Positions 10,401-23,806 of a stretch of 25,542 bases of DNA are shown here, one piece after another (position 1 is the stretch's first letter; each line of letters starts with the position of its first letter). Made by a program: the position numbers and the translations under genes. This DNA comes from a virus, in the IMG/VR virus record IMGVR_UViG_3300031772_000251, positions 1 through 25,542 of that record. The stretch is one strand, 5' to 3'. The notes under the pieces were generated by a model. It ran no database searches. It was not told where the DNA came from and saw nothing but the letters and a program-made list of their open reading frames with translations.

Positions 10401-10881
10401 CATCGAGGGCCACGATCGTAACTGCCCAGGCCACACCGGAGCCCGTAGCGCCCACAGAGAGGCGATACGGGGCGGCGGGAACTACGGCAGCCTGGACAGG
10501 GGCCCGGACCTTCAAGCGAGCTGTGTTGGAATTCGCCGCAAGGTTACCCACGACCGTGATGGCGGCCCCTGGCAGAGGCTTGAACCGCCCTGACCGGGCC
10601 GCGTAATCGAACCGCTGCACGATCTCATTTTTAACCCATCCGAACTCGGCCCCGTACAGGGCCCCTGGGTATGGCGGGGGCGTCCCAGGGATCAGCGGCG
10701 GCTCACCCTCAGAGGTGACCAGCACGAGGTAGTCAGTCCGAGGGTTCGCCTCACTCGACGGGTAGGCCGCGTCAAACGCAACCTGATTTGAGATCAGGTT
10801 ATCGGGTGTCTGCGTGAAGGGCGAGTTTGCCTGCCCCACGCGAATGGGCTCAAGAACATAACCTGAAATCTCGAAAGCCAT
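4477..10881 (-). CDS. Giant modular beta-rich baseplate or fibre protein (2134 aa)
   Basis: The largest gene in the window. The protein is almost all beta strands and turns, rich in Thr, Val, Pro and Gly, with no signal peptide. It is built from repeats. One family (residues 480-545 and 638-703) has the core FxxxGVxxGxLxxI, AKGxYTV, LTTxxPxP and GAxYS. A more diverged relative recurs at about 1371-1435, 1742-1803, 1814-1879 and 1929-1994. A hairpin motif, TGxLxFxxxDxxTYAG followed by a strand, recurs near 172, 268, 360 and 785. A fibronectin-like stretch (FYYRVETMTN) lies near 1262. The last ~130 residues turn helical (from EASIQALFALHQNIAALISS). Position after the spike and before wedge genes suggests a baseplate arm, wedge or long fibre. 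No catalytic motif was seen. The start is two bases after the upstream TAA. Confidence 0.8.
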   Translation of the reverse strand: MAFEISGYVLEPIRVGQANSPFTQTPDNLISNQVAFDAAYPSSEANPRTDYLVLVTSEGEPPLIPGTPPPYPGALYGAEFGWVKNEIVQRFDYAARSGRFKPLPGAAITVVGNLAANSNTARLKVRAPVQAAVVPAAPYRLSVGATGSGVAWAVTIVALDVDFGSPPSLTAELSLETGNLNWHAADLTTYAGQLVRFQQQQFFDFQESTGNVGYAPVSLTDPLILLNPKPGTGQFPLLRFGFGFYLQTIEVPNDAGLVPAPASGFVKWSLATGRLAFNAGDAATYAGTPVYYDGVLFATGLQLPRQVLGDIATPAAIVGLPPVGVDLIFSLPAASTYYQFPRFKYLPSASFSPSGKVGEVQVDPLTGVVQFSASDQSTYAPEDVTVVFGDLPIERGISVRLLRTPVNLDGSQALKDVTAIYEVKGATWADPIIGSPQVFLPSTPIQDAGYQLKVQVFQGQGTFTSNDFPDLSLVVAGTSTTFTGPTLTDPLASFSTAGVTTGSLLQIHTTVAKGLYTVVTVTPTTLTTNPPAPSAVVGATYSIYPASNLGYYIDFDAGTLFYAQRKNLTIVPITQRTSDVMLPDPLVLQGNLLLELETGPGTGIYNPLVLGTDALFDSTSGVVSLTTNAGQIVAQGTSASFSGTAFSDLTADFIAAGVQPGYLIEIDTTAAKGVYTVQTVVSATALTTDVPSPSPVMGAQYSVRVNREVLADRYFDEVQLVDPSTKVERIRGLGPASNGPRLNIPIAYVNSSGFRLGPASGGQFATVVVVPNNGAFTAPPTGTVQVSAASGDLNFAAADLGTTVYWAKTLVPDVDYIMSPGLGLIQFTDRMLTQEEVLITYTTQPPSTDPPTPAGPPVTEYARFLIRKEITQAHPTPTSTLTFNVASPGRPVLPVASNPPPAVFRGGRPQTLGTQCVVDTVASTITFLADSIITDALPHGAIIGPSERVYIDYYVTQAVGGEKTTTILNPPIQTATVNIQETDQNGNPNNKFTITGGDYTASFPTGYLLRIEKDQVYLIGSSVYAPDTTTVTLAGTQVFQDTFNDPKLYVSSGPTPITSAPLVPAYFTPETQAFEAIARGSNTLLIAGDRTLSYRTGVVLLFTNGGSTFTDFLQVSGASYDPDTDRTKVMLSANALRQYVQGTQILLYSVRPVFEPPTVEVPTSQVPVLTQPTVVYRRVTGQPGVILDSPTDYKIDDTGRVVFTTALAPLEEFSIFYTGLRQVSPGINLRASYTNQIAPNANNGLLGQVLLADYFIQSPDTFYYRVETMTNFRGEYAKEIESEASSGSSGPQTSNASQPQLFEQGRKSLYFDEGHLANQDIIARSSLLFYNNSVNLLEAYLRALDGRVVGNNDGLFLFDGTTGILNPSGSATFPLVTTLQDLSAIFTTVLIGRTVEVLSGANKSLKRTITAVPSGTQLTLSPALPSTSSGKYRVLATNQIDDVIQVSPAPYSIKFPPLVVTSIGTFRKYYIPGALSRFYPTSKDFFAFSTVTSDSETGDEVVDTKSTNVTLVAELHTRLAWGVLTESTEFSGPSILKVDFADGSEPGFDDQVEKYARPPFKNGMKCVVQRRDGTFINPATSPVTVTAVAANQLTVTGLASVADVGTTVYRSPIDDSVQVDPDKLTYYTLGLDYSFNGDSGQVIYIGAFPPPLVNTQLVEAQALSGKVNLINTLTAPLQFPALYGGIEDDDGDLSFPIQTPDPDSEQQGYLFTEDKLIHAVTGLIRTVTTSPFVGTGSLNAPRTIITNAVPFVAPLPKVHDLVRILSGLNGQTTFRRITAVGASTVTVSEVFAVVDAGFTFEIGVSALAVTGTAAVTSTVTQLDDLLATFLTSAKVGQTVVLTSGANNGERRQISAIASNTSLTMTPALPFLPAGQAYRIDNSLATYGGTSGDHMTELSAALAGEILLYPDEQQYIEDFLDQVFTDVTTGTGSTSAAVLTDGSATFLDDGVSPVNYVYIETGLNAGIYPVLSVTQTQITVTTPFPVVAAGVAYRVVSLFGASEASIQALFALHQNIAALISSATAFQTLISTPVAVTRTPADTASFARATLTTDLGTRDMVVDARIAALPTDILTVENILANTDRLYDTRWTWVDARINLESGLTVQQATATANRVKDQANIYKQLIKLLAVEGS
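4484..4489 (-). promoter_or_regulatory. Shine-Dalgarno site of the 63-residue gene
   Basis: GGAGGG on the minus strand, three bases before the ATG at 4478-4480. It lies within the last codons of the 2134-residue gene. Together with the ATGA overlap it argues that the small frame is translated. Confidence 0.65.
4900..6771 (-). repeat. Four diverged copies of the same repeat type in the C-terminal half
   Basis: Copies lie at residues about 1371-1435 (6771-6577), 1742-1803 (5658-5473), 1814-1879 (5442-5245) and 1929-1994 (5097-4900). Each has a short Asp-containing start, a strand ending in VGxxVxxxSG or similar, a G-x-N/K basic turn, a strand with ITAV or ISAI, then T-x-x-PALP or TPFP and a closing YRV/YRI. 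The second and third are nearly tandem. The relation to the copies at 480 and 638 is inferred from this shared order of motifs. Confidence 0.55.
8773..9444 (-). repeat. Two copies of a ~66-residue repeat in the 2134-residue protein
   Basis: Residues 480-545 (9444-9247) and 638-703 (8970-8773) align without gaps over most of their length. Shared features are T/S-x-F at the start, D-x-x-A-x-F, GV-x-x-G-x-L-x-x-I, TT-x-AKG-x-YTV-x-TV, LTT-x-x-P-x-P and GA-x-YS. The region between the copies is beta-rich and unrelated to the repeat. Confidence 0.7.
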
Positions 10882-10883
10882 CT

Positions 10884-11462
10884 TTAGATCACCGACCCGA
10901 AGCCGACGCCTGCACCACCAACCGGAGAACCCGTACCAACGATCGGGACAGGCTCGAAGAAGCCCGCGAACGTGATGTCCAGCCCGATCCCGATCGCCGT
11001 AGCGGTCTTGATCGGCCCATCACCAATCATTCCCATTGAAGCAAACCCCGCGATCATCGCAGGGACTGCCGTGGGGCCCACGATCCTCGCCACCCCGGCC
11101 CCAACACCGATCCCCGGGTGGTTGGTCTGCAAGAGTGCCAAGGCGGTCCAGCCGGTGATGAGCCCATTCGTGAGCCCCGTGATCAGCAAGGGGGCCATGG
11201 GACCCAAGATCCCCATGGACGAGAAGCCAGCGTAAAGACCGCCTTGAAGCAGCGGTGGGAGCACGAGCAACGGCATGATTGAGGTCCCTACACCAAGAAC
11301 CCCAGCGTCCACCGTCACAACCTTGGCTTGGACCGTAAGGTACTGGCACACCCCAACCGCAACACCCATTGCGAATTTGGGCATACCCATCCCGATGTTC
11401 CCTGTAGAAAGCAGGTTCGGAGCGAGGAACGCTGCCGCAAGTGCTGGCGGGTTCAAGGGCAC
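10884..11462 (-). CDS. Gly-rich hydrophobic virion protein built of three ~60-residue repeats (192 aa)
   Basis: The GTG at 11460-11462 shares its first base with the TAG of the HNH gene, and GGAG (11471-11474) lies eight bases upstream. The protein has very few charges and many Gly, Ala, Met and Pro residues. It divides into three repeats. The anchor motifs are LSTGNIGMGMP (18-28), FSSMGILGPMAP (80-91) and FASMGMIGDGP (140-150). Each is followed by a hydrophobic helix ending in Gly-x-Gly, and then a GVGxG-type turn segment. The spacing is 60-62 residues. The chain is not a clear membrane protein, since the hydrophobic runs are short and broken by Gly and Pro. It sits directly after the spike (ignoring the HNH insertion) and before the giant baseplate protein, so a baseplate or spike-tip role is plausible. 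No known family is claimed. Confidence 0.75.
   Translation of the reverse strand: MPLNPPALAAAFLAPNLLSTGNIGMGMPKFAMGVAVGVCQYLTVQAKVVTVDAGVLGVGTSIMPLLVLPPLLQGGLYAGFSSMGILGPMAPLLITGLTNGLITGWTALALLQTNHPGIGVGAGVARIVGPTAVPAMIAGFASMGMIGDGPIKTATAIGIGLDITFAGFFEPVPIVGTGSPVGGAGVGFGSVI
10887..11441 (-). repeat. Three tandem ~60-residue protein repeats
   Basis: Repeats span residues about 8-69, 70-130 and 131-192. The second and third are the closest, with AGFSSMGILG against AGFASMGMIG. The first keeps LSTGNIG at the same place. Each copy then has a Pro, an aliphatic helix and a Gly-rich end (VDAGVLGVGT, HPGIGVGAGV and VGGAGVGFG). Confidence 0.6.
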
Positions 11463-11953
11463 TACCTGCGCTCCAAATAGGCCGCAAGACGCAGGAAAAT
11501 TTGTGGGTCTGTGCAGTTCTGTTTGATGGTGTTAGCAAGGTGGCTGATCACCGCGACGTTACCAGGCACATAGCCTTTGGCAGGATCGATCTTGTCCAGC
11601 GTCATCGACTGCTGTCCGACCTTACCCACGCCACGCTTGAACGGAACCCGTGTAATAGGGCAGAGACCGTCCACCGGGATCAAGCAACGAATGTCCTCTG
11701 CCGTGATCGTGAACGGCAGGCCCTCTTTTCGAGCACGCTGCTTAGCACATTTGAACAGCAAAATTTCGGGATTCTCGATGTAGTAGTTTCGTTCTTTCGA
11801 TCGAACCAGCGTCAGATTCGTACGCCTGTACGCTTTCGAGTCCGCTCGGAACTTCTCTGCGTGCTTATCGTAATAAGCCTTGTTATAAACCCGACGACTT
11901 GAACGATGGGCTTCAAGTTGCTCAGGGGTTAGAGTCTCGACTTTGGCTGTCAT
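11462..11953 (-). CDS. Free-standing HNH-type homing endonuclease
   Basis: A 163-residue protein. Residues 16-60 are basic and Tyr-rich (RRVYNKAYYDKH, then KAYRRTN), a pattern seen at the N-terminus of many phage HNH proteins. The nuclease core follows. It has GLPFTIT (78-84), a Cys pair at C90 and C98 with LCPI, then LDKIDPAKGYVPGNVAVIS (119-137) and LANTIK (139-144). The usual first His of the HNH motif is replaced by Asp-Lys-Ile-Asp, as in a known subgroup of these enzymes; N132 and N141 are kept. Such genes spread by cutting alleles that lack them. It splits the structural operon between spike and the triple-repeat protein. Its ATG overlaps the spike stop (ATGA) and its TAG overlaps the next GTG. 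It is probably not part of the virion. Confidence 0.85.
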   Translation of the reverse strand: MTAKVETLTPEQLEAHRSSRRVYNKAYYDKHAEKFRADSKAYRRTNLTLVRSKERNYYIENPEILLFKCAKQRARKEGLPFTITAEDIRCLIPVDGLCPITRVPFKRGVGKVGQQSMTLDKIDPAKGYVPGNVAVISHLANTIKQNCTDPQIFLRLAAYLERR

Positions 11954-14103
11954 AGGGCGGACCTAAACAAAGCAGATCCAGCCAAGGGCAGGCCGGTTAT
12001 CCAATCCAGGCTAGGGGTACCAGGAGGCATCATCGGAGCCCCACGGCACACCCCAAGAGGGGCCGCAGCGGTCCCGATCAGCACCTGAGCGCTAGTGAGG
12101 GTAATGGCGGTGGGTGCCGTCAGGTTCATCGCGAGGCCCGCTGTGAGCGCCATCGCAAGACCTGCCGTAACCGACACCGCCCCGGCTGCCGCTGACAGGG
12201 ATAGCGCTCCCGCTGCCGTAGCGAGACTGATGGCACCCGAGCCCACGGTTACCGAGTAGGCACCCGCCGGAATGTTGGTGGTCATGGCACCACCCAGCAC
12301 GTTGATTGTGCGAGCACCCACCACCAAGTTCTCAGTGAGACCACCTGCAAGAATCGTAGATATCTTGCCACCGAGCACGATGGTTTCCAGAACCGCCAGA
12401 GCGTACTGGTATTGACTCTTGCCTGAGCTGAGCACGTCGATGCCCCCGGCATTCAAGCCAAAGCCCGATTGAGCGTTGACAGAAAACCTGTCTGCCAGAA
12501 TTTTGTACCCACCGTTAACCGTAGTAGCCTTACCGCCATCCACACGCTGGATATTATCCCCAGAAGAGTACGTTTGTTTGTTCCCCTGTAGGCTCTCGCT
12601 GTACGCCACATTATTGTTATCGGGGACCCCTTGAGCCTCAACCACGTAGGACGAGTGGGTGCGAAAGGTCAGACCCGCACCTGAAGAACCGCCTCGGAAA
12701 TCGAACACAACGCTGCCTTCCGAGGTCAGGTGAAGGGCCACCCCATTAGGACTAGCCGCCCCAAGACGCATCTTGAGGGCACCCGCCATATTGATCTCAG
12801 CCGAAACGTTCTTGACGCCGGATGCGTATTTCTCAACCCTTGACCCAGGGATGTTGACGAACAGCTTGCCTTGCTTTGAAACCGCCACAGCAAAAGCATT
12901 CAAGTTGTCGGAAACACCAGGGGGCTTCGGGGGCGGGTTAATCCTGAATAGGTACGCACCTGAGGTTGTGAACGCTTCGTCGTCATCCATTGGAGATCGA
13001 GCAATCGTCTCCAGGCTAAAAGTGCCAGGACTGGTCGCCAAGAAGTCGTCGAAAATCTTTGGCCGCAGTAGTTGCCCATACTGCTTAAGACCCGTATCCG
13101 AGGACGTGTCATTCCCGACGAGCGTGCCAAGGATACGCTCGATGTAGATCGGTTTACGATCCATTTGAAAACCGTCGATTTCCTCACGGACTTCTTGAAC
13201 CAAGTCCGTAGAGTGCAGCATCTCCAAGCGTTCTTCGGTAAAAGCATCCGCCCCGGCATTCTCAGTGGGGTGCTCGAAGTCAATCCCAGGACTCGTTACG
13301 GGGTAGTGTGCCCGTCGTCCGTTTGAAAAGGTTACGGGTGGGAAGCGAGCTTCGTCATTGAACGTATTAAACAACACGTCGGTACTGACCGTGTAGCGTT
13401 TCAAGATAGTGTTGCCGAAATACCGTTCCGATGAATCCTTGAGCGTCTTCCCCTCTTTGATGATGTCCGGAGGTAAGAACAAGCCACCGCGCCGAACGGG
13501 GCCCGAGGATCTGAACACACCCGCTTCACTCGCTACCCGGTGAATTGCCTGTGAGACAAGCGTGCGGTCAGAATCGCGAAGCTCAAAAAGATCCCCCGCT
13601 CGATTGGCCATCCGTACATCACGAGTCAACGTGAACTCAGAACCAGACGCGGACATACCGCCCACGTCTCCTGGCTCTAGGTTCAGACTCTTGTACCTGA
13701 TCTGCGGGGAAAACACCTTGTTGAACAGGGACTGCTCATCCGGGGTCACCTGCGACTGGTCGGTCGAGGAAAAAGGGTCGAAGCGCATGCCTGAGCGCTT
13801 GCCCACAGGCAGGTACCCAAGGATCATAGCCTCATGAAGCTGCTTGTGTTTCCGTCGATAGCCTAAGATGACCATCGAGTTAACTTCGGGTACACCACCC
13901 CAAAAACTACGCGGTCCAGTCATCCCCTGGGTGAGATCGATCTCAAAGCGCTCACCGCCGCCAGTAACGATGGTCACGTCAGCCTTCAACTCAAGGGGAT
14001 CAACCCGAGTAAGGACCCCGAGCTTCATCCCAAAGGGCTCGTGATCTATGAATTCCTTACCTGGTACGTAACCAGACGGGTGCTTTGGTCTATAGTCTGA
14101 CAT
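11950..14103 (-). CDS. Baseplate central spike (OB-fold plus triple-stranded beta-helix needle)
   Basis: A 717-residue protein of the gp5/gpV/VgrG type. Residues about 24-100 form an OB-like barrel (FGMKLGVLTRVDPLELKADV, then FWGGVPEVNSMVILGYRRK, then AMILGYLPVG). Residues 100-490 are mixed and less clear. From about 500 on, short strands rich in Gly, Ser, Val and Thr suggest an intertwined beta-helix. Residues 621-676 fall into seven 8-residue units (GSGAISLA, TAAGALSL, SAAAGAVS, VTAGLAMA, LTAGLAMN, LTAPTAIT, LTSAQVLI), as in the octad needle of T4 gp5. About 40 residues follow as a tip (GVCRGAPMMPPGTPSLDWI). Unlike T4 gp5 it has no lysozyme domain; the peptidase lies in the 586-residue protein. 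It should be a trimer on the hub. No Shine-Dalgarno site is seen, and the start is three bases after the hub stop, so coupling is likely. Confidence 0.85.
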   Translation of the reverse strand: MSDYRPKHPSGYVPGKEFIDHEPFGMKLGVLTRVDPLELKADVTIVTGGGERFEIDLTQGMTGPRSFWGGVPEVNSMVILGYRRKHKQLHEAMILGYLPVGKRSGMRFDPFSSTDQSQVTPDEQSLFNKVFSPQIRYKSLNLEPGDVGGMSASGSEFTLTRDVRMANRAGDLFELRDSDRTLVSQAIHRVASEAGVFRSSGPVRRGGLFLPPDIIKEGKTLKDSSERYFGNTILKRYTVSTDVLFNTFNDEARFPPVTFSNGRRAHYPVTSPGIDFEHPTENAGADAFTEERLEMLHSTDLVQEVREEIDGFQMDRKPIYIERILGTLVGNDTSSDTGLKQYGQLLRPKIFDDFLATSPGTFSLETIARSPMDDDEAFTTSGAYLFRINPPPKPPGVSDNLNAFAVAVSKQGKLFVNIPGSRVEKYASGVKNVSAEINMAGALKMRLGAASPNGVALHLTSEGSVVFDFRGGSSGAGLTFRTHSSYVVEAQGVPDNNNVAYSESLQGNKQTYSSGDNIQRVDGGKATTVNGGYKILADRFSVNAQSGFGLNAGGIDVLSSGKSQYQYALAVLETIVLGGKISTILAGGLTENLVVGARTINVLGGAMTTNIPAGAYSVTVGSGAISLATAAGALSLSAAAGAVSVTAGLAMALTAGLAMNLTAPTAITLTSAQVLIGTAAAPLGVCRGAPMMPPGTPSLDWITGLPLAGSALFRSAL

Positions 14104-14106
14104 GGC

Positions 14107-17100
14107 TTAGGGGGTAGAGAGTTGGGTCTGTTTGCGCAGAACATCTTGCTGGAGTTTAGCAATCTGTTCGTTTCTAGAGTCAATCTCATCCTTAAGGTTC
14201 ACACCAATCACAACAGTATGAGAAGCTTGTTGGCTCTCCAGGTAATCCACTTGGGCTGTGAGCCTAGCTATCTGTGCCTTGTCGTTGGCCAATTCCAGAG
14301 AAAGCTTGGTCTTGGTTGTGTCCTTCTTCAGGTTTTTGCTGAAATCCTCCCAACTCTTGGAAAGGTCCCTAGCGTTTGATTCCACAGCCCCCACGGCTGC
14401 CTTCACGTCGCCCAGATTGAACCGATTCGGGGCTGAAAACGGCGGAGCAAGTTCGGAGGGTTCACTCTGTCCGTCTACTGGTTGGACCTGTGTCGGAGAG
14501 AAAAGAGCATCCAGTTTCAACCCGGACAAAAAGGCGTCCTGACTCTCAAGTGGATCCTGACCCACGGCTGAGTTCAAAGACCTAGGTAGCAGATCCCCAC
14601 GGATTGCCTGCTCAAATTGTTGATGCGGGGTATCCAACTTGCTGTAAAGGTCCACCAAGAACTTGTCCACTTTGGACACGACTTCAGACGGGTTGCCCGC
14701 CGAAGACGAAGCACCACGTTGCAATAAGTCGAGTTCATCTTCAGCTTGTTGCAACCGAGCGGACACGCTACCCGCATTCGCAGAGGTCTGACGGGCTGCT
14801 AACTCCGCTTGGAGGCGTGCTATCTCCACTCGAACTTCTTGCAGTTGAGCCTCTAAGGGGCCGCCACTCACCTGTTGGGCATCTAGTTGGGATTGTAGGG
14901 AGGTGAACCTTTCACTAGCTGCTTGCAGCTTCAAATCCACATCTTCGGCGGCTGCTTGCTGTGCTTCAGCACCACCAGCCGTCAACTGGTCCCTCAGAAT
15001 AGCAATGTTCTGCTCTAACTGCTCTTGCCGTCCCGCTTCAATTGGCCCACCGGCCACCGTGGCTTGGAAGAGGCCCGAGTTATCTGTGGTAGAGGAAGGG
15101 CCGGTAAGTGGTTGGACAGTGTACCCGATATTCATGAAGGCCAGGTCTGCCCGCCCGGTCAAGCACACACAATCCTCGTCCCTGGTAGACAACCCGTCCT
15201 TCACGGACATCTCAGTAAGCGTCAAAGCTCTGGACAACTGTCCAGCTTCCACAGACTGAATGACACCTTTCTGCTCTTGCGATCCGAGAGGTGCTGTGTC
15301 TACGAAATTGTCACCGACATCGACAAACTCCATTCTCTTAGTCTGAGGGTTGATCACCCCGGTAGAAGCAGTCTGTGTGTCGTCAGGAGTTAGAGTCGCA
15401 AGGGTGGCCGCCGGATCAGCATACCCCGTTGAGACCGTAGTGAGCCCTTGGGACTGCGCTGTCAGCGTTGCACTCAAGTCACCACTCAAGGCGAGTTGTA
15501 GACTGACGGCAGCTTTCGTAACATTCGGGCCGCTAACAACTAAGCGACCATCCCTCAAAGACACTCGTCTGCCGTATTGGAAGTTGCCGATTACTTCAAA
15601 CCCACGTTCATCGCTCACCGGAACGATTACGGACGTAGTTGATTGAAGAATGTCCTTGGAATCAATGACCGTGACGTTCTTTGTGGGCAGAAGAAGTAAC
15701 TCGCTAATGACCCCACCGCCAGCCGACGTGTCATGGGCGTACACATACACCCCAGATGAGTTAAGACCGTACTGGTAACGATTAGTCCCCAACTTATCGA
15801 TTAGCTGATCCCGCGCACCAGTGACCAACCTGTCTTGCTGAAGAGGCAGGGTTTGAGTCTGTCGTTCCACCCTTTTCTGTTGATCAGAAACCGATAGGTT
15901 AGGGTCGGGCACACTCGCAGGCTTCTGTCCCGCTTGATTGCTGATATCCGCAGGGGTGTAGGGTCTAGTGTAGACCATCACTACGTTTGGGTAACCCACG
16001 ATTCGTCCGGTCTTAGGGTGCCGAAGAATGAGTGGATCGAAGGGGTTATCGACACCCGCCGCTGCCGCGTAAGAAGCTTCATCTGGAGGGAGAGTGGCCG
16101 CGCTACCCGCCTCTAACTTGAAAATCCCGCCCGTCGCAAGTTGCCTAGACGAGTAACGAAATGTCCGTTTCTCTCCCTCTTTAGACTCGTCTGGTACGTT
16201 ATTGAAGGAAGTTAGCTTGATATTCCCTATGCCTTTAGGGGCGATGAACTTGGAGCGCTTAGCCGTGAGCGTCAACTGCGTGGTGGCACGACCCCCAAAC
16301 GCAATGTTGTGACTGATCCCCGTGATATACCAAATTTGATCTTTGGGGGCGATGTAGATTGGAAAACCTAACCGCAACTCCGCTCGCATTGGGATGGTTA
16401 CAGTCGCTTGATTACGCGCTGAGTTGATCCTATCCAGAAGATCCAGCCCGTAGTAATACATGGCTTGAGGAGACGATAGGAACTCCGAGGTGTGGTCCTG
16501 TGATCGCCACCCGTACCTACGCAAAAGGCGGTAATCTGTGACAAACGTGCCTGGGGTTGCAGGGCCGTCAATACCAAGGTCCTGCGTACCGCCATAGGAC
16601 CCCTTAAGCACAACCTGAGTCACAACACTCGATTCCGACTCAGAAAAATCCCAGTCGATGATGTCAATGTCTTGGATCCAAGACACAGGCTTGTTGCTCA
16701 GAACATCTAGGTTGTAAAAGGGTGGTTTGAATACGATGTCGCCGGTCACATCCATGTAGAACTCGAACCCCAGAGCTTCTTTACATGTGTTGGCGATCTC
16801 TAGTTTAGTCTGGTACTCAGACTGCCATATGTCCATGTTTCCGGCGTTAGCTGTCACGAAACGGTACGCGGCTACCTGGTCCGAGGCGGCGTCAAAGACC
16901 ACCTGACCCCCGTCCACACCGCCGTTAGCGTCACGTATGATGGTGGAGACAACCGCACCCTTGTCGCCTTTGGCCCTAGAGTAGGTGTCAAATAGCGTGT
17001 CCCCGCGAACTGCAACACCTTGTGTTCCGTAAAGTAAGAGGCTGCTACGTATACGAGCAAAACGCTTACTCCAGTACCGCATGATATCGTCGGACGCCAC

Positions 17101-17730
17101 AGTCTGGGCTTCTGTGTTCTTCTCTCGTATGACGTTGTTTAGGGTCCCTGTAGCCACGATAATGTCCCCGAAGGCTTGGTTCGCCAGCGTGAACATTATG
17201 TCGTAAGGGTTAACCTGAGCAAAGACGTTACCCTTGATGGTTTTCCCCTCCTGCGGGTTAGGAGCTGTGAACGCCGCGTTGACGTTCACCTTACAAATAT
17301 CCCACCACTTCAGAATATCCGCACAAGAGATACTGACAGAATGCTCACCCCCGGAGTAGCTGTCCCCAACTTCCGTAACGATACCCCAGAAAATAGGGTA
17401 GTATTGTGGAATACCTTCCACCAAGTAATACCCCTTGGAGTAGATTTCTACCTCCATCATCGACGTGATGATCGGATTACCGTCGAAGTAGAAGTCGTCG
17501 ATGGCGTGCCGTGGAATTGACAAGTTGAACGAGGCTGATCCAGGCGCACGATCTATTCCCAGATCGGTTTGAACTGACGTGATGTACTTGTTGAAGTCGA
17601 ACGACCTGGAACAGCTAGGGCAACCTACGATCGCCTGCTCGCCATTCAAGTAGACAACCGTATCTGGAGCCGTGACCACAGTTGGCCGGACCCCAGATTG
17701 GTAGGTACCTTGATAGGGACTACGAGCCAT
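14107..17730 (-). CDS. Baseplate hub protein (gp27/gpD-like) with long C-terminal coiled coil
   Basis: A 1207-residue protein. Residues 24-500 read like a gp27/gpD-type hub: strands from VVYLNG, a Cys pair in GCPSC (36-40), SVQTDLGIDRAPGSASFNLS, then FWGIVTEV and SVSISCADILKWWDI. A second barrel includes DIVFKPP and WYITGISHNIAFGGRATTQL (467-486), a typical hub ending. Residues 500-890 are an extra Ser/Thr-rich, beta-prone extension. From 895 the chain is coiled coil, with a partly duplicated segment (GGPIEAGRQEQL at 894 and GGPLEAQLQEV at 956). A final helix runs near 1143-1203 (DKAQIARLTAQVDYLESQQ). T4 gp27 and P2 gpD have about 390 residues, so this is about three times longer. It should form the trimeric platform for the spike. 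Its ATG overlaps the previous stop as TGATG. Confidence 0.75.
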   Translation of the reverse strand: MARSPYQGTYQSGVRPTVVTAPDTVVYLNGEQAIVGCPSCSRSFDFNKYITSVQTDLGIDRAPGSASFNLSIPRHAIDDFYFDGNPIITSMMEVEIYSKGYYLVEGIPQYYPIFWGIVTEVGDSYSGGEHSVSISCADILKWWDICKVNVNAAFTAPNPQEGKTIKGNVFAQVNPYDIMFTLANQAFGDIIVATGTLNNVIREKNTEAQTVASDDIMRYWSKRFARIRSSLLLYGTQGVAVRGDTLFDTYSRAKGDKGAVVSTIIRDANGGVDGGQVVFDAASDQVAAYRFVTANAGNMDIWQSEYQTKLEIANTCKEALGFEFYMDVTGDIVFKPPFYNLDVLSNKPVSWIQDIDIIDWDFSESESSVVTQVVLKGSYGGTQDLGIDGPATPGTFVTDYRLLRRYGWRSQDHTSEFLSSPQAMYYYGLDLLDRINSARNQATVTIPMRAELRLGFPIYIAPKDQIWYITGISHNIAFGGRATTQLTLTAKRSKFIAPKGIGNIKLTSFNNVPDESKEGEKRTFRYSSRQLATGGIFKLEAGSAATLPPDEASYAAAAGVDNPFDPLILRHPKTGRIVGYPNVVMVYTRPYTPADISNQAGQKPASVPDPNLSVSDQQKRVERQTQTLPLQQDRLVTGARDQLIDKLGTNRYQYGLNSSGVYVYAHDTSAGGGVISELLLLPTKNVTVIDSKDILQSTTSVIVPVSDERGFEVIGNFQYGRRVSLRDGRLVVSGPNVTKAAVSLQLALSGDLSATLTAQSQGLTTVSTGYADPAATLATLTPDDTQTASTGVINPQTKRMEFVDVGDNFVDTAPLGSQEQKGVIQSVEAGQLSRALTLTEMSVKDGLSTRDEDCVCLTGRADLAFMNIGYTVQPLTGPSSTTDNSGLFQATVAGGPIEAGRQEQLEQNIAILRDQLTAGGAEAQQAAAEDVDLKLQAASERFTSLQSQLDAQQVSGGPLEAQLQEVRVEIARLQAELAARQTSANAGSVSARLQQAEDELDLLQRGASSSAGNPSEVVSKVDKFLVDLYSKLDTPHQQFEQAIRGDLLPRSLNSAVGQDPLESQDAFLSGLKLDALFSPTQVQPVDGQSEPSELAPPFSAPNRFNLGDVKAAVGAVESNARDLSKSWEDFSKNLKKDTTKTKLSLELANDKAQIARLTAQVDYLESQQASHTVVIGVNLKDEIDSRNEQIAKLQQDVLRKQTQLSTP

Positions 17731-19490
17731 CAGCCAGCCCCGGTAAAGTCGTTGGGCCCTACTGGACCCAAGCCATCATTGGACGGTAACGCAGGAGGCG
17801 GTAACGCCACATTCGGGCTAGGTTGAGGTGCAGTGTTCCCAGCCATGAGTGGGTTGCCCCCAGCACTGGTAGGAACGGAGGGCACAGTGGGCTTACCGTA
17901 CATGTACTGGTTGTCCTCAAAATGGTCCAAGAGGTACCACGAACGCACGGTGAACGAAAAAGAATACTCCAATGTGAAAGGAGCTGAATCGGTCTCAGTT
18001 AGGGTGAAGGAGTCGAAGGACCCTATGTACAAAATCTTGTCGTAGTAGAGGTAGATTGAGCCGACAACCGACAGGTTCTTAGCCCTGGAGTTTCCCGGCA
18101 CAAGTGGATCTGGAAACCAGATCCCTCCGTTATTCTTGTATATGAGCCACAGGGATAAGAGATTCTGGTAGCTCTTAGAGAACTGTCGAGCCGTTCGACT
18201 AAGCCCAGGGCCAGTTGGGTTATTGGCGTCTTGAGCGAAGAACGCGGCAACTTTACCCGAAGCCTCGATCTTGTCCTGGTTGTCGCCCCAGTGTTCGACA
18301 ATAGGGCCGTTCCTCCCCCAGTTACCGTCCGCTATGAGTTTCTCGGCTGTGACTTGGAAAGACTGCGGGTTGACCAACATTCGTAGCGGTGGTGTCCTAG
18401 CCATCAGTTCGAGGGCTTGCCGCATCTGATTGATCATGACCCGTTGTTGCTCTAGAAAGGACCCTTCCAATTCATCAGTTCTGAGGGATTTGGCAGCAAC
18501 CTGTGAGGTAGTCTTGCTGGCCTCATTAGCACTTATGGCCCCCAGCTCTACCCAATTCGTTGCAGGCTCACTGTCGGAGACGAACGGCACTTGCACAACG
18601 GGTGCCGTAGAAGTGTCCTTGGTGTCGGAAACCGATCGGCCCTGTAGCTTAAGCCAGACCTCAGGAGAGATGCGAGCTGGCCGCAATAAGTCTGGGGCAT
18701 TGATTTTATCCGCTGCTCCCGCTGCTAAAGGCTGAGGGCGTGGGGTACCAGGCCCTCCTGGTACATTCTTCTCAAGCACCTCAAAATGCAGATGGGGTGC
18801 CACCGGAGGCCCAGGCAAATGAGTAGTACCCACGTACCCAATAACCTCACCACCAACGACTTTTTTACCTACCGAAAGACCGGGCGCAAACCCTTTCAAG
18901 TGACCGTAGACAGTGACGCGGCCATCCGCATGCTCGATCAAGACACAGTTACCGTAGCGGTCCCGAACACCATCCGGAGCAACGGTCACCACCGTACCAT
19001 CCGCCGCTGCACGAACGTCAGCCCCAAGTTCCGCTCGAATGTCTATACCAGCGTGACGTTTTGCAGGACCAGGTTGGATCAACCTGAGGGAACCTGGATT
19101 ACTAAAGGGGGAGCTTATCTTACCAGTTGGCACTAACCCTGCCCCAGCTTTAACCGAAGTGGGTTCGTCGGTATCCGCTACCTCATCTTCAGCCTCAAGA
19201 CCTACATCGGGGCCTTCAGCTACGAAGGTACTGTCTAGAGATCGTACAGAAGCGGAGCGATCCAGGATTCTCCCTGTAACGTCAGAACTCGGAGGGACGA
19301 ATCCGACCGCCATCACATTGACGTCTTTAGGGCTTCGGAATTGTACCCCGGATAAAGGAATGAATTGCCCGTCAAGCGGTTCTGGCTGAGTCTCAAGAGC
19401 CTGGTAGAACGACAATAGCTCGTACACAGCGGGTTCGTAAAAATCCGCTGTATCTTCTATGTCTTGAGCTATCCGCTTCTTTGTGACCAT
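17730..19490 (-). CDS. Tail lysin: M23 peptidase fused to a tube/hub adaptor-like domain
   Basis: A 586-residue protein with two domains. Residues about 120-245 are an M23 (LytM-type) zinc metallopeptidase. All key residues are present: H146 and D150 in HAGID, H197 in VYGHL, and H233/H235 in HLHFEV. This family cuts peptide cross-links of peptidoglycan. Residues about 366-524 are clearly paralogous to the upstream 249-residue protein: VNPQSF, VEHWGD, KNNGG, YIGSF, LTETD and PFTLEYSFSFTV. The rest is linker, with a Pro/Asn-rich tail. There is no signal peptide, so it is a virion enzyme and not an exported one. Lying between the tape measure and the hub, it probably works at the tail tip during DNA entry. 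The start is six bases past the previous TAG; both genes are in the same reading phase. Confidence 0.85.
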   Translation of the reverse strand: MVTKKRIAQDIEDTADFYEPAVYELLSFYQALETQPEPLDGQFIPLSGVQFRSPKDVNVMAVGFVPPSSDVTGRILDRSASVRSLDSTFVAEGPDVGLEAEDEVADTDEPTSVKAGAGLVPTGKISSPFSNPGSLRLIQPGPAKRHAGIDIRAELGADVRAAADGTVVTVAPDGVRDRYGNCVLIEHADGRVTVYGHLKGFAPGLSVGKKVVGGEVIGYVGTTHLPGPPVAPHLHFEVLEKNVPGGPGTPRPQPLAAGAADKINAPDLLRPARISPEVWLKLQGRSVSDTKDTSTAPVVQVPFVSDSEPATNWVELGAISANEASKTTSQVAAKSLRTDELEGSFLEQQRVMINQMRQALELMARTPPLRMLVNPQSFQVTAEKLIADGNWGRNGPIVEHWGDNQDKIEASGKVAAFFAQDANNPTGPGLSRTARQFSKSYQNLLSLWLIYKNNGGIWFPDPLVPGNSRAKNLSVVGSIYLYYDKILYIGSFDSFTLTETDSAPFTLEYSFSFTVRSWYLLDHFEDNQYMYGKPTVPSVPTSAGGNPLMAGNTAPQPSPNVALPPPALPSNDGLGPVGPNDFTGAG

Positions 19491-19496
19491 TGCCTG

Positions 19497-20246
19497 CTAC
19501 TCGACTCCATTACCAACTTCGCCTGCCGGACCGAAAACCCCGAAGTCCACACTCACATTCCTAGGCACCTCAACAACACTATTGGCAACATTGTTGTTCG
19601 TCTGTTGGAAGTTAGGGGCGTTCTCATAGTTAGTCTTACCCCTTGCCGAAGGATCTCGACTGAGCCCTGGGATCTTCATCAACTCTTCTTCGACCTTAAA
19701 CGTCCAAGACACCTTAAAAGTGAAGGGTTGGTCGTCTGTTTCGGTCACATCAAAGGATCGGAAATACCCGATGTACGTGCCGCGATCAAAAAGCAGCATC
19801 ACGTTGCCTTGCAGCACGATGTTGCCGTAGGGGTCGTAAACGCTCCCGTTGTTGCGGTAGAGATCATGCAGATCTCGGTAGCGATCCCATGCGATAGTCT
19901 TGTGGCGCAGCACTGAGGACAGCCCCGTAGATATGTTCATGAACGCGCCGGTCGAGCCATCAGCAGAGATAGCGGTCAAATCGTCCCCCCAGTGTTGCTC
20001 CACGAAGCCGCCCCGAGTCTGGATTCGTTCAACTTTCTTAGAGTGGTTCTCCGTAAAGGTCTGCGGGTTGATGTGCATCACCAAGGCATGCGGCAACAGG
20101 CATCGCCGGTTGTTGAGCGGGCTGGTTATTTGGAAGGCCATTGGGATGTAGGACTTCCGCTGCTCAAGACCGTGCTGATAGTTGGGGTTCGTGGACGGAA
20201 CCTGCAACAAGTCAGTATCTGGGTTAGGGGAAGGAATGTGGGGCAT
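19497..20246 (-). CDS. Tube/hub adaptor-like protein, paralogue of the M23 protein's C-terminal domain (249 aa)
   Basis: Residues about 47-192 match the C-terminal domain of the next gene's product in the same order: INPQTF (59-64), VEQHWGD (82-88), ISADGSTGAF, YRNNG (130-134), YIGYF (158-162), VTETD (167-171) and PFTFKVSWTFKV (174-185). This layout of an NPQ-x-F start, an HWGD and a final YxGxF strand before an aromatic-rich strand resembles the tube-adaptor family next to the hub (XkdP, Afp7 or T4 gp53 region), but that link is inferred. The N-terminal 40 residues and the Asn-rich C-terminal 50 look disordered. The gene follows the tape measure, where initiator or tube-to-baseplate adaptor proteins are expected. 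AGAGG (20254-20258) overlaps the tape measure stop and supports the ATG start. Confidence 0.7.
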   Translation of the reverse strand: MPHIPSPNPDTDLLQVPSTNPNYQHGLEQRKSYIPMAFQITSPLNNRRCLLPHALVMHINPQTFTENHSKKVERIQTRGGFVEQHWGDDLTAISADGSTGAFMNISTGLSSVLRHKTIAWDRYRDLHDLYRNNGSVYDPYGNIVLQGNVMLLFDRGTYIGYFRSFDVTETDDQPFTFKVSWTFKVEEELMKIPGLSRDPSARGKTNYENAPNFQQTNNNVANSVVEVPRNVSVDFGVFGPAGEVGNGVE

Positions 20247-20253
20247 CGCAGTA

Positions 20254-20258
20254 CCTCT
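20254..20258 (-). promoter_or_regulatory. Shine-Dalgarno site of the 249-residue adaptor-like gene
   Basis: AGAGG on the minus strand, seven bases before the ATG at 20244-20246. Its first base is the last base of the tape measure stop codon, so ribosomes ending the tape measure are placed to restart here. Confidence 0.55.
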
Positions 20259-23200
20259 CAGCGCAACCGCTTATTACGGTCATGCTCCGCAGCGCCCTCA
20301 ACCACACGAGCGTCAATGAAACGCCGCAGGTCGCCCTTCAACTCCAGCTCGACCTTCAGGTTCCCGCCACCACCACGGCCACCTGCGGGAGTGATCCGCT
20401 CTCCGGTGCCCACCGATGCCAAACCTTCACCTGGGGCCGAACGGACGTTAGCTATACCATTGGCGATACTCGTTACAAGACCACCGTCCGCGTTAGGCGA
20501 CAGCATCTTACCCAACGCAGCTTGAGGGCTCCCCATAGTTGTGGCACCGCCTACAACACCTGACCCAAAGCTACCGGGACTAAAGGCACCGCCTCTCAGG
20601 CCCTGAGCCACAACCTTTTGGTCCAAATCTTTGTACATGTAATACTCGAACAAACCCGTGCGGATAGCCTCAAGGGTGGCTCCACCCATCTTGTCAACTG
20701 TGCTCTTCTCAATCGGAATACCCCTCTTGAGGGTGTCCGTCACACCCCCCACAGCCGCCGTAGTAGCCTCCACATCAGCGGGGGTAGCGGGGACGGTGGC
20801 AAGGGCGGCAACGGCAGGAGAGGCGGCAGGAGAGGCGGCAGGAGAGGCCTTTGGGGCCTCTTTGGGGGCATCACCCCCAAAGAAGTCAGCCACGCCACTC
20901 GCCATATCCGACCACACGCTTGTGGTGGGGGCGGCCTTGGGGGCAGTAGGGGCGGCCTTGGGAGCGGCGGCACCATCAGCAGCCTCCTCAGTGGCCTTTG
21001 TCAGCCTCTCCATGACTGCGACGTAATCCGTCTGATCTAAGTAGTAGGCCAACTTCGTGGCCATCTCATCAGCGGTCAATTTCCGACCCAGCTTTGCTTC
21101 GGACGCCTCGATATCAGCAGTGGATTGCTTCTTTGTGTTAGTGAAGCCGTGTCCCGCTATGGTCCTATTTGTGCTGCTATCCGCAACGGCATCCTCAAGG
21201 GCTGCCACAATAGCCGCTTTATCGTCCTCGCTACTCGCACTCATTTTGTCCGCGAGTGCAGGCAAGACCACTTTAGACAACGCATCCTTCTGGTACTTCG
21301 CCGCGTCCTCCCCGGATGCCTTCCAGGCACTCATGAGTTCTGTGTTTTTAGATTTCTCTAAGCCAGCTTGGATTTTCTCACCCTTGACATCCGCATCACT
21401 CTTCCCACCAAACATCGGGCTGTCAGCAATTTTCTTGAGGGAGGTGAAAATCTTGGTCAGGAGATTCTCTACCAAGATGGAGAACTCATCTAGAGTGCTC
21501 ACGGTAAGGTGTGCAGTAGCGTCTTGGAACTTCTTTGTGTTTGCCGAGTCTTTGAGCAGATCTTGCTGGCCTTGAGTGAAGCTGTTGTAGATATCCTGAT
21601 CATCTGCACCACGCACGTTAGCAGCAGTGGCGGCTTTCCCAGTAAGACCGCTCAGCTTCTTCAGTTGAGCCGTCTCTTTGACCGTCAAAGACAGACCCTT
21701 TTCCAACTTTTTGGCAAGGGTCTCCCGCGTAATCTCCAAACTCCCAGACATGAGAGCCATCTGAGTTATCATGTCCTCGCTCTGACCCGTCATCCCCTTG
21801 AAAGCAATGATCTGAGTGCCCGAAAGTTTCGCCAGAGGTGTGCCGAAGTTCTTCTGAGCCAGGGCCTCAAGTAACGCCATGTTCTCCCCAGGGCCCTGAT
21901 CTTTAATGACCATGGCCAGATCAATAGAGTTCTTAGTGTTTAGGCGACCCTGATTAATGGTGAGTCGTTCCAAGGCCCCACGTTGGTCGGATGTGATCTT
22001 ATCCCCAAGTGTGGCCAACAAACCGGACATCCCTTTGGTGTCCCCCTTAGAGATAGCATCTTTCAGGGCTAACATGGAGGCAGGATCAACTTTGGCCCCC
22101 AGGTCGCTTACGGTACTTTCAACCCTGCTGGATAACCCCTTCTGAGCGATACCCCTGGCTTTACCCTCACCAGCCAACATGACTGTTTTCAAGTTATCTA
22201 AGACATCGCCCTTACCGAAATCGGTGAGTGTGCGAAGGAACTTTGCTGAGTCCCGAGGATTCATCACCTTGCCCATAGCAGTGAGCGCTGTGGTGACGTC
22301 AACCATGCGTAGGGCAAACAGGGACAAGTCTGTGGAAAAGCTTTTGATGATCCCAAAGAACTTGTTGCTCGCCATCCCAGCCTCAGCCGCACCCTGCGTT
22401 AGGCGTTCATACTCCACAGTGAGGCTGGTTAGGCTCATCCCTACTTCGCTGGTAAGCTCCCCTTGAAGTTGAGTAAGTTCACTCAAACTAACTCCCCAAT
22501 GCCTAGAGTATGCAACGCTAGTCCACATCACGTCGTTGAGGCCTGATAGCCCCCCGGACAGCTTACTCACTTCTTTTGGGACCTTCGCGATTTGGTCGTT
22601 GAGCATCGAAATAGTCACACCCTCAGCCCCGAGCTGAGACTGAAAAGATGAGGTTATTTCCTTAGTGATGCCTCGCTGCACGTTGACCAGACGTGAAGCC
22701 TCGTCATAAGCCACACCCATAGCCTTCTCGGCCGCAGCGGCACCCAAGCCTACATTACCCATGCTACCGGCCAAGAAATCGGCGCTACCAGAAGTGGACA
22801 GAATTTCCTTCTGGAAATCCTTCATGGCTGCTTCCGCACCCAGGAGGAATTTAACAATGCCCATGATAACCCCACCAATCATACCCAGCATGGGGAGCAT
22901 CGTACTAATCCCCTTAAGCACGGGGGCGATACTGGACGCAAGCTTACCGATAACCCCGATAACGCCCTTCATCGCTGGGTCGCCACCCGTGGCTTCTTCT
23001 TTCTTGGCAGCGGTATGCATCTTACCGATAAGGTCTAGCTTGGAAACGGTTTTTCCAAACACCCTGCCCAACCCTACAAAGATCCCCGGCAAGTCCTTTG
23101 AGGCGAAAGCCCTAAATGGTTCTGACAAGTCCTCCCCAGACGCCTTGAGTGCATCAGTCAGGCCCTGTATATTCACACTCTTTTCCAAATCCTGGTGGGG

Positions 23201-23806
23201 CTCTGCCATGCTCTCCCCAGATGCTTCAAGTTCTCTGAGGGTCGCTAACTCCTGCTTCTTGACACTGAGGATGCTTTCAGCCCCCTTCAGAGCGACTTCC
23301 TGGGCTCGAACCATCTCCATGACGGACTCGACGTTTGCCTCAGCCGCCGCCACCTTACTCTTTGAGGCCGCTATAGCGGCCTCATCAACACGCAACCCGC
23401 GCTTCTGGTTCGCAAGCTGCTTCTGACCAAGGGCGTAATCGTCCTCTCTAAGGGACTTCAACTCCTTCTCTGCGTTGGTCTGTCGCGTCTTTAGTTCAGT
23501 AACGACCGCCAAAGTCTGATTAGCTGTCTTCACAACTTCAGCAAACGACAAGTTAGTGGACGCAATTACGTCCCTAATCGCTTTGCGGGATTTCAACTCC
23601 TTCTGCAAGACAGGGCCCACCACTTGCTTGACCCGACCCATCCTGTAAAGATACTGAGTAAGGCCCTTGTTCAGATCCTTCTCATTCCTCTCAACCACCT
23701 TGAGTTTCTTGGTCAACTCCTTCTGAAATTTAGTGGCTTGCGAGATCGCGGTCTGAGAATCGACCGCAAACTTGAAGTTGACTACTTCTGGTTTTTCAAT
23801 AGCCAC
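20258..23806 (-). CDS. Tail tape measure protein
   Basis: An 1182-residue protein with the usual tape measure layout. Residues 20-200 are helical and rich in Lys, Glu and Ala, with likely coiled coils. Residues about 278-323 are strongly hydrophobic (GVIGVIGKLASSIAPVL, then MLPMLGMIGGVIMGIVKFLL). A long helical stretch continues to about 940. A Pro/Ala linker follows (945-1010, including KAAPTAPKAAP and ASPAASPAASPA). The end has the Gly-rich DGGLVTSIANGIANV and GEGLASVGTGERITP patterns that I associate with phage tape measures. It sets tail length and is ejected with the DNA. The standard guide of about 0.15 nm per residue would give a tail near 175 nm. The start is a GTG (23804-23806) without a clear Shine-Dalgarno site. 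The stop of the upstream gene is two codons before it and in the same phase. Confidence 0.85.
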   Translation of the reverse strand: MAIEKPEVVNFKFAVDSQTAISQATKFQKELTKKLKVVERNEKDLNKGLTQYLYRMGRVKQVVGPVLQKELKSRKAIRDVIASTNLSFAEVVKTANQTLAVVTELKTRQTNAEKELKSLREDDYALGQKQLANQKRGLRVDEAAIAASKSKVAAAEANVESVMEMVRAQEVALKGAESILSVKKQELATLRELEASGESMAEPHQDLEKSVNIQGLTDALKASGEDLSEPFRAFASKDLPGIFVGLGRVFGKTVSKLDLIGKMHTAAKKEEATGGDPAMKGVIGVIGKLASSIAPVLKGISTMLPMLGMIGGVIMGIVKFLLGAEAAMKDFQKEILSTSGSADFLAGSMGNVGLGAAAAEKAMGVAYDEASRLVNVQRGITKEITSSFQSQLGAEGVTISMLNDQIAKVPKEVSKLSGGLSGLNDVMWTSVAYSRHWGVSLSELTQLQGELTSEVGMSLTSLTVEYERLTQGAAEAGMASNKFFGIIKSFSTDLSLFALRMVDVTTALTAMGKVMNPRDSAKFLRTLTDFGKGDVLDNLKTVMLAGEGKARGIAQKGLSSRVESTVSDLGAKVDPASMLALKDAISKGDTKGMSGLLATLGDKITSDQRGALERLTINQGRLNTKNSIDLAMVIKDQGPGENMALLEALAQKNFGTPLAKLSGTQIIAFKGMTGQSEDMITQMALMSGSLEITRETLAKKLEKGLSLTVKETAQLKKLSGLTGKAATAANVRGADDQDIYNSFTQGQQDLLKDSANTKKFQDATAHLTVSTLDEFSILVENLLTKIFTSLKKIADSPMFGGKSDADVKGEKIQAGLEKSKNTELMSAWKASGEDAAKYQKDALSKVVLPALADKMSASSEDDKAAIVAALEDAVADSSTNRTIAGHGFTNTKKQSTADIEASEAKLGRKLTADEMATKLAYYLDQTDYVAVMERLTKATEEAADGAAAPKAAPTAPKAAPTTSVWSDMASGVADFFGGDAPKEAPKASPAASPAASPAVAALATVPATPADVEATTAAVGGVTDTLKRGIPIEKSTVDKMGGATLEAIRTGLFEYYMYKDLDQKVVAQGLRGGAFSPGSFGSGVVGGATTMGSPQAALGKMLSPNADGGLVTSIANGIANVRSAPGEGLASVGTGERITPAGGRGGGGNLKVELELKGDLRRFIDARVVEGAAEHDRNKRLR
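20813..20848 (-). repeat. Three perfect 12-bp repeats inside the tape measure gene
   Basis: On the plus strand the unit is GGCAGGAGAGGC, present three times in a row. It codes for the Ala-Ser-Pro-Ala steps of the linker near residue 990. A second short repeat lies at about 20927-20965, where a 21-base period codes for KAAPTAP/KAAPTTS. Both are in frame, so slippage would change only linker length. Confidence 0.85.

Follow-up and report, generated by a model that had tools for sequence, protein, structure and literature searches.

Tandem tail-tube-initiator-like proteins with an exchangeable slot for putative peptidoglycan hydrolases in very large phages

In a window of 25,542 nucleotides, the whole stretch analysed here from the IMG/VR virus record IMGVR_UViG_3300031772_000251, two adjacent genes encode paralogous proteins resembling tail tube initiators, and the second of these contains a slot which holds an M23 peptidase domain here and unrelated hydrolase families in close relatives. 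The two genes appear from their sequences to be an ancient tandem pair that stays together without exception across a set of very large phages, most of them uncultured. We consider it probable that they encode tandem tube-initiator rings at the position of T4 gp48 and gp54, the second with a refillable hydrolase slot doing the work of the gp5 lysozyme.

The gene pair, its fold and its neighbours

Paralogue 1 is a plain tail-tube-initiator-like protein of 249 amino acids (19497..20246, minus strand, as are all window features given below), described from its open reading frame, its tube-fold model and a best Foldseek E-value of 4.4e-6. Paralogue 2 has 586 amino acids (17730..19490), and its open reading frame, BLASTP and Pfam matches divide it into a conserved N-terminal domain, a hydrolase slot and a tube-fold domain. 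The tube-fold domain spans residues 34-191 in paralogue 1, which is the confident part of its model (19674..20147), and residues 366-524 in paralogue 2 (17919..18395), where BLASTP, the model and hhalign identify it as paralogous to the former.

BLASTP aligned residues 55-185 of paralogue 1 to residues 369-515 of paralogue 2 with 33% identity over 147 alignment columns (E=8e-21). The Smith-Waterman score of the two proteins is 190, compared to 36.5 +/- 5.4 (maximum 61) for 500 shuffles, which places it about 28 standard deviations above. Profiles of 35 orthologues of paralogue 1 and 38 of paralogue 2 were aligned by hhalign with a probability of 99.3 (E=1.9e-20). A sequence-only reading of the window had proposed an ordered motif set common to both proteins, and the profile comparison as well as the motifs themselves bear this out: all six are found in the same order within the aligned domains, namely NPQ[TS]F (positions 60 in paralogue 1 and 374 in paralogue 2), HWGD (85 and 400), NNG (132 and 453), YIG[YS]F (158 and 488), TETD (168 and 498) and PFT (174 and 504).

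The AlphaFold2 model of paralogue 1, built with 35 orthologues, has a mean pLDDT of 72 and good confidence over most of residues 31-190. Searching it with Foldseek against the PDB gave 37 matches at E<=1e-3, all of which are tail tube or baseplate entries, with low TM-scores of about 0.35. They come from contractile and other tails and include the Anabaena, AFP, PVC and Algoriphagus injection systems, the phi812 baseplate, monocin, diffocin and others. First in the ranking are baseplate chains of injection systems, which we take, partly from their chain length, to be of the Afp7/Pvc7 type. The AlphaFold2 model of the whole paralogue 2 is weak outside the tube domain, with pLDDT < 50 across residues 87-313, probably because the alignment columns there mix unrelated enzymes. 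Much of the C-terminal domain is modelled confidently, and its top structural matches are the same group as those of paralogue 1 (best E=1.7e-3). Immediately before this domain the secondary structure of the model predicts a helical segment (residues 312-365; 18396..18557).

According to these models, both domains have the fold of tail tube and tube-initiator rings. Since both match the same fold family, the comparison gave no sign of two differing folds. The suggested likeness to XkdP/Afp7-type adaptors is upheld by the tube-like fold and by the Afp7/Pvc7-type chains among the best matches, but not by the domain content, as Pfam scans found no LysM domain in either paralogue. The Phage_tail_tube_init family (Pfam: PF23980) scores 18.8 bits in the window, below its curated cut-off of 27, and is likewise below cut-off for the relatives L134 and L178. 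The phi812 ORF59 protein matches the profile of paralogue 1 only weakly, with E=0.48, in the region of the NP-x motif, and a sequence search of paralogue 1 against solved structures returned no match. Both of these weak sequence matches point the same way as the fold.

The two tube-fold domains might instead have been recruited separately from the tail tube protein of the phage, not by duplication of an initiator gene. In phage tails the tube, the initiator and the hub have domains of one common fold, which Foldseek cannot tell apart, so the structural matches are compatible with such an origin. The 33% identity and the common motifs of the two domains argue against it, as do reciprocal cross-matches of the two profiles in all lineages, and in a comparison that covers the genes within the window, with the tail tube gene of the phage lying outside it, we regard separate recruitment as quite unlikely.

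To find relatives, IMG/VR was searched with each protein and with a profile of paralogue 1, and the pair turned up in many contigs, the longest of 530 kb. Paralogue 1 has 40 relatives in IMG/VR, and wherever sequence is available to both sides of a locus, paralogue 1 is followed by paralogue 2. In distant phages the pair can be found lacking the N-terminal domain and with no recognised enzyme in its second member. The simplest reading of this enzyme-free pair in distant groups is that the duplication most likely preceded the hydrolase graft. The sequence-only reading had assumed this order, with one copy of the duplicated domain gaining a peptidase at its N-terminal side. The enzyme-free pair supports the order, but the exchangeable slot speaks against a single graft. 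Nor was the peptidase merely added N-terminally, since the M23 domain is preceded by the conserved N-terminal domain (about residues 5-86) and followed by the tube-fold domain (366-524).

In the window the two genes are, as had been noted, in the same frame and separated by a UAG and two codons, after which the ATG of paralogue 2 follows. Readthrough of this UAG could therefore yield a fused product of 249+586 residues acting as a regulated tail lysin. Among 68 counted pairs, however, the frame is shared in 26 and different in 42, the stops between the genes are mostly TGA or TAA, with TGA the most frequent, and the downstream gene has its own ATG. As only 26 of the 68 related pairs share the frame, a readthrough product is not supported as a conserved feature, and we give a fused tail lysin next to no credence.

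The genes run in the order tape measure, paralogue 1, paralogue 2, hub and spike, so that the earlier placement of the pair between tape measure and hub agrees with the window as well as with conserved synteny. The probable tape measure (1182 amino acids; 20258..23806) lies immediately upstream and is proposed from its size, its position and its synteny with the annotated gp257 of Tunturi_5; it had no family match. DNA similarity is lost in the middle of this gene in most of the compared close pairs, with flanking genes 78-91% identical, and the tape measure may thus carry exchanged segments too. The probable baseplate hub (1207 amino acids; 14107..17730), immediately downstream, is suggested by its position and its N-terminal sequence pattern. 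It has neither a Pfam match nor an enzyme domain, it belongs to a PHROG of unknown function, and its profile gave only coiled-coil noise against solved structures. The probable central spike (717 amino acids; 11950..14103) matches a PHROG of the gp5 C-terminus (E=3e-4) and has weak profile matches to P1 and T4 gp5 repeats at its C-terminus; neither Pfam nor PHROG gave a lysozyme or other hydrolase match in it.

The annotated genes of Tunturi_5, a jumbo myophage in culture, follow this order too, from tape measure to the tail protein annotated as a lysin. Tunturi_5 is a distant relative with an acidobacterium host and a contractile tail (PMC11924767). In its record (L136) the first paralogue is the longer one: gp256 (10435-11751), annotated as 'lytic tail protein', is extended by about 220 residues at its N-terminus and has an insertion within the tube domain, and Pfam recognises no known enzyme in it.

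Further along the window, an endonuclease VII/HNH-like gene (11462-11953; PHROG 3322, E=5.7e-30) is located between the spike and a gene for 192 amino acids. L044, about 99% identical in other parts, lacks it, and L006 has a homologue placed between the genes for paralogue 2 and the hub. The gene resembles a homing endonuclease of the free-standing type, which may encourage recombination locally within the tail module. The 192-aa gene (10884-11462) is 64% identical in L044, compared to about 99% for its neighbours, which may be another sign of local replacement beside the endonuclease gene.

The slot of paralogue 2 and its exchange among relatives

The conserved N-terminal domain of paralogue 2 (residues 5-86; 19233..19478) has no family match and was delimited with a profile, LN, that matches nearly all ingroup orthologues and none in distant clades. 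It is about 85 amino acids long and may anchor or guard the cassette. The exchangeable slot, or cassette, comprises residues 87-299 (18594..19232), as defined from the slot families and their borders, and here holds an M23 domain with linkers. Peptidase_M23 (Pfam: PF01551) covers residues 145-243 (18762..19058) with E=1.7e-23 and 83.1 bits against a cut-off of 28.7. The sequence-only reading was right to call the peptidase complete, as the full Pfam domain and both metal-binding motifs are present, with the zinc ligands intact in HxxxD (HAGID at 146-150) and HxH (HLH at 233-235). The domain is thus a putative peptidoglycan peptidase.

Both ends of paralogue 2 are conserved across about 60 distinct relatives, with some 85 residues at the N-terminus and some 240 at the C-terminus, the latter including the tube domain. 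Between these conserved ends the main group has 170-300 residues which belong to unrelated families. According to Pfam and PDB profiles, the largest slot class is the SLT transglycosylase with a cluster of 22 sequences, followed by a GH73-like glucosaminidase with 19 (FlgJ match E=5e-6), the M15/VanY peptidase with nine, M23 with six entries, four of which are the window's own species, and the GH24 lysozyme with five; cluster members below the Pfam cut-off were typed by their similarity to members above it. CHAP is found in L028 and a CHAP-like domain in L120. A further class (CysP; L023, L033 and L087) matches nothing in Pfam or PHROGs, and its invariant Cys and His are the sole ground on which we call these slots putative cysteine hydrolases. 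Likely catalytic residues are conserved within the slot classes. For several slots no family was matched, and scanning the untyped ones against PHROGs gave mostly empty results. An M23 assignment of L006, L009 and L016, taken from BLAST alignments that run through the slot, was rejected: Pfam gives SLT for L009 and, weakly (E=0.01), for L006, and nothing for L016, which clusters with the GH73-like slots.

The exchange of the slot is frequent, precise and sharp-bordered. L008 (GH73) and L011 (SLT) are 91% identical in DNA upstream of the tape measure and 86% identical downstream of the slot. Inside paralogue 2 their similarity is gone between positions 9202 and 9976 of L008, in which the slot occupies 9212-9931. 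The same break, confined to the slot within paralogue 2, is seen between L087 and L100 (Cys/M15), L005 and L059 (SLT/M15) and L122 and L123 (GH73/M15). L093 and L100, which are both M15, align without a break. On a scaffold tree of 61 rows with nine states, at least 29 changes of enzyme class are needed, where the minimum possible is 8 and the mean for shuffled labels is 34; the tree of paralogue 1 alone needs 28. At least 12 of the changes on the scaffold tree go from a glycan-cutting to a peptide-cutting enzyme or the reverse. Pairs with 75-90% scaffold identity have the same enzyme class about half the time, and for pairs at 50-70% identity the class is shared no more often than by chance (0.23).

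As almost all of these sequences are metagenomic contigs, the variety of the slot could in principle stem from chimeric joins made inside the gene during assembly. The slot borders coincide in many independent genomes, however, and the reading frames are open across the joins. The same identical or near-identical variants were moreover recovered from different, independent metagenomes (L046-L048, L011/L012, L021/L022 and L023/L042), which argues against chimeras. An assembly artefact is therefore extremely unlikely.

Source of the cassettes and other seats of the enzyme

In 15-16 large records, M23, VanY, GH24 and SLT occur essentially only at the slot (in L038 on paralogue 1) and once per genome. 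The exceptions are an extra GH24-like match in L006 and a weak M23-like match with an internal stop in L019. An origin of the M23 domain as a copy of the phage's own endolysin is not borne out, as in the large contigs tested M23 exceeds the cut-off at no site other than the cassette or paralogue 1. Because these families occur essentially only there, the slot enzymes are not recent copies of a same-family endolysin in the same genome, and judging from their distribution the cassettes probably come from outside the genome.

The enzyme is also found on other proteins of the tail core. In L038, a record of 512 kb, the slot is missing and an M23 domain is present at the C-terminus of paralogue 1 instead. 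Among the distant phages, which lack the N-terminal domain, the hub gene encodes M23 in L134 (4.7e-31) and GH73 in LR745208 (1e-7). The hub of L181 has a tail-lysozyme match just below cut-off (7.5e-6) and that of L142 an SLT match below cut-off (6e-4). L202, again a distant record, has M15 in paralogue 2. Several distant records have no recognised enzyme at the scanned loci, so that the presence of one enzyme is a tendency and not a rule. The gene after paralogue 2, the hub, encodes 1480-1815 amino acids in L139, L181, L192, L203, L204, L209, L211, L214, L216 and L218, compared to about 1200 in the window. Only some of the scanned long hubs of distant phages contain a recognised hydrolase, and their length suggests that they hold further domains without a family match.

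The single occurrence of these families also bears on the stage at which the enzyme would act. It might work at lysis or assembly and not at entry, either after being cut from the ring protein or with the whole protein as the endolysin and the tube domain as its carrier. This would fit with M23, VanY and SLT exceeding the cut-off nowhere else in the large records and with the absence of a second lysin of the same family there. On the other hand, the gene lies inside the tail module beside tape measure and hub in all relatives, and where the enzyme has another seat it is on the hub or paralogue 1, which are all tail-core genes. The L006 record has one extra GH24-like gene, and the search covered other endolysin families non-exhaustively. 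On balance we think a role in lysis or assembly unlikely and favour one at entry.

Proposed role and comparison with known systems

T4 gp48 and gp54 are present in six copies each at the junction of baseplate and tail tube (PMC3004832). From the tube fold, the syntenic position and this arrangement in T4, we read the pair by analogy as two stacked tube-initiator rings at the gp48/gp54 position. The tail tube would be built on these two rings above the hub. The second ring protein would, in this lineage, have gained a linker-flanked slot for one peptidoglycan hydrolase, and the copies in the virion ring would carry several hydrolase domains at the tube tip to the cell wall after contraction. 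The hydrolase of paralogue 2 would thereby substitute for the gp5 lysozyme of T4, which the spike appears to lack here, as if the tail lysozyme had been transferred from spike to ring. The slot is flanked by variable low-complexity linkers, as would fit a mobile cargo domain. The slot would be refilled by recombination with unrelated hydrolases, M23 in the window, and because of this refilling the scaffold would be inherited but the bond that is cut would not. The chemistry of the host wall would be the obvious selective pressure on the enzyme in the slot; a host search among the genome contigs gave two metagenomic bins and no firm host.

More generally, we lean towards the view that the slot of the tail ring serves jumbo phages as a hot spot for exchanging their whole wall-entry chemistry, with many switches between glycan-cutting and peptide-cutting enzymes in one lineage, and that the enzyme can shift to the sister ring or the hub, such that the tail core usually keeps a hydrolase whose kind and seat are not fixed. 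The relatives form a natural series of about 60 proteins with the same scaffold and different enzymes. With this series one can ask whether the enzyme tracks the host, which linkers permit grafts and what cargo a tail protein tolerates. The conserved tandem pair further offers a handle for locating the tail-core lysin of uncultured jumbo phages where annotation fails. In the open-access literature we found no report of a tube initiator with a peptidase, of fused lysozymes in huge phages or of an exchangeable slot in a tube-initiator paralogue.

A close parallel to the proposed arrangement is T4 with gp48, gp54 and gp5. Both systems would have two ring proteins between hub and tube, the pair adjoins the genes for tape measure and hub, and a tail-associated hydrolase is delivered at the tube tip, as we infer for the phages studied here. 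In T4, however, the lysozyme is located in the middle of gp5 on the spike, between the OB fold and the triple beta-helix, whereas here the enzyme is in paralogue 2 and its class varies between close relatives. No sequence similarity of the window pair to gp48 or gp54 was detected. The tube-like fold is also found in phi812 ORF59 (PDB: 9euf), Afp7/Pvc7, the phiCD508 initiator and PF23980, and the NP-x region aligns with ORF59 and PF23980. These simple contractile initiators differ from the pair described here, which has two tandem copies, one with an enzyme, no LysM found and PF23980 below cut-off. phiCD508 is a contractile phage without any such enzyme (PMC11948020).

Mosaic domains are already well known in endolysins and tail fibres. 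Unrelated catalytic domains are exchanged beside conserved fragments in endolysins and receptor-binding proteins (PMC10684548), and the parts of that survey cited here highlight endolysins, tail fibres and spikes, neck passage proteins and polymerases and describe no tube-initiator scaffold. Tail modules of enterococcal phages contain M23, CHAP, NlpC/P60, lysozyme or amidase domains in varied architectures (PMC10194240), with neither a tube-initiator paralogue nor an exchange mapped on a scaffold tree in the sections of that study drawn on here. A fast-exchanging enzyme slot in a core tail assembly protein is more of a surprise, since a tube-initiator ring has to make a precise fit with both hub and tube. 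The hub gp147 of the Bacillus phage 0305phi8-36 likewise has hydrolases, namely transglycosylase, NLP and M23 domains, on a conserved tail-core protein, and is remodelled in relatives (PMC2147016). That protein is a hub and was compared in few genomes, whereas the slot described here is a single one in a tube-initiator paralogue, filled by six or more enzyme classes across about 60 genomes.
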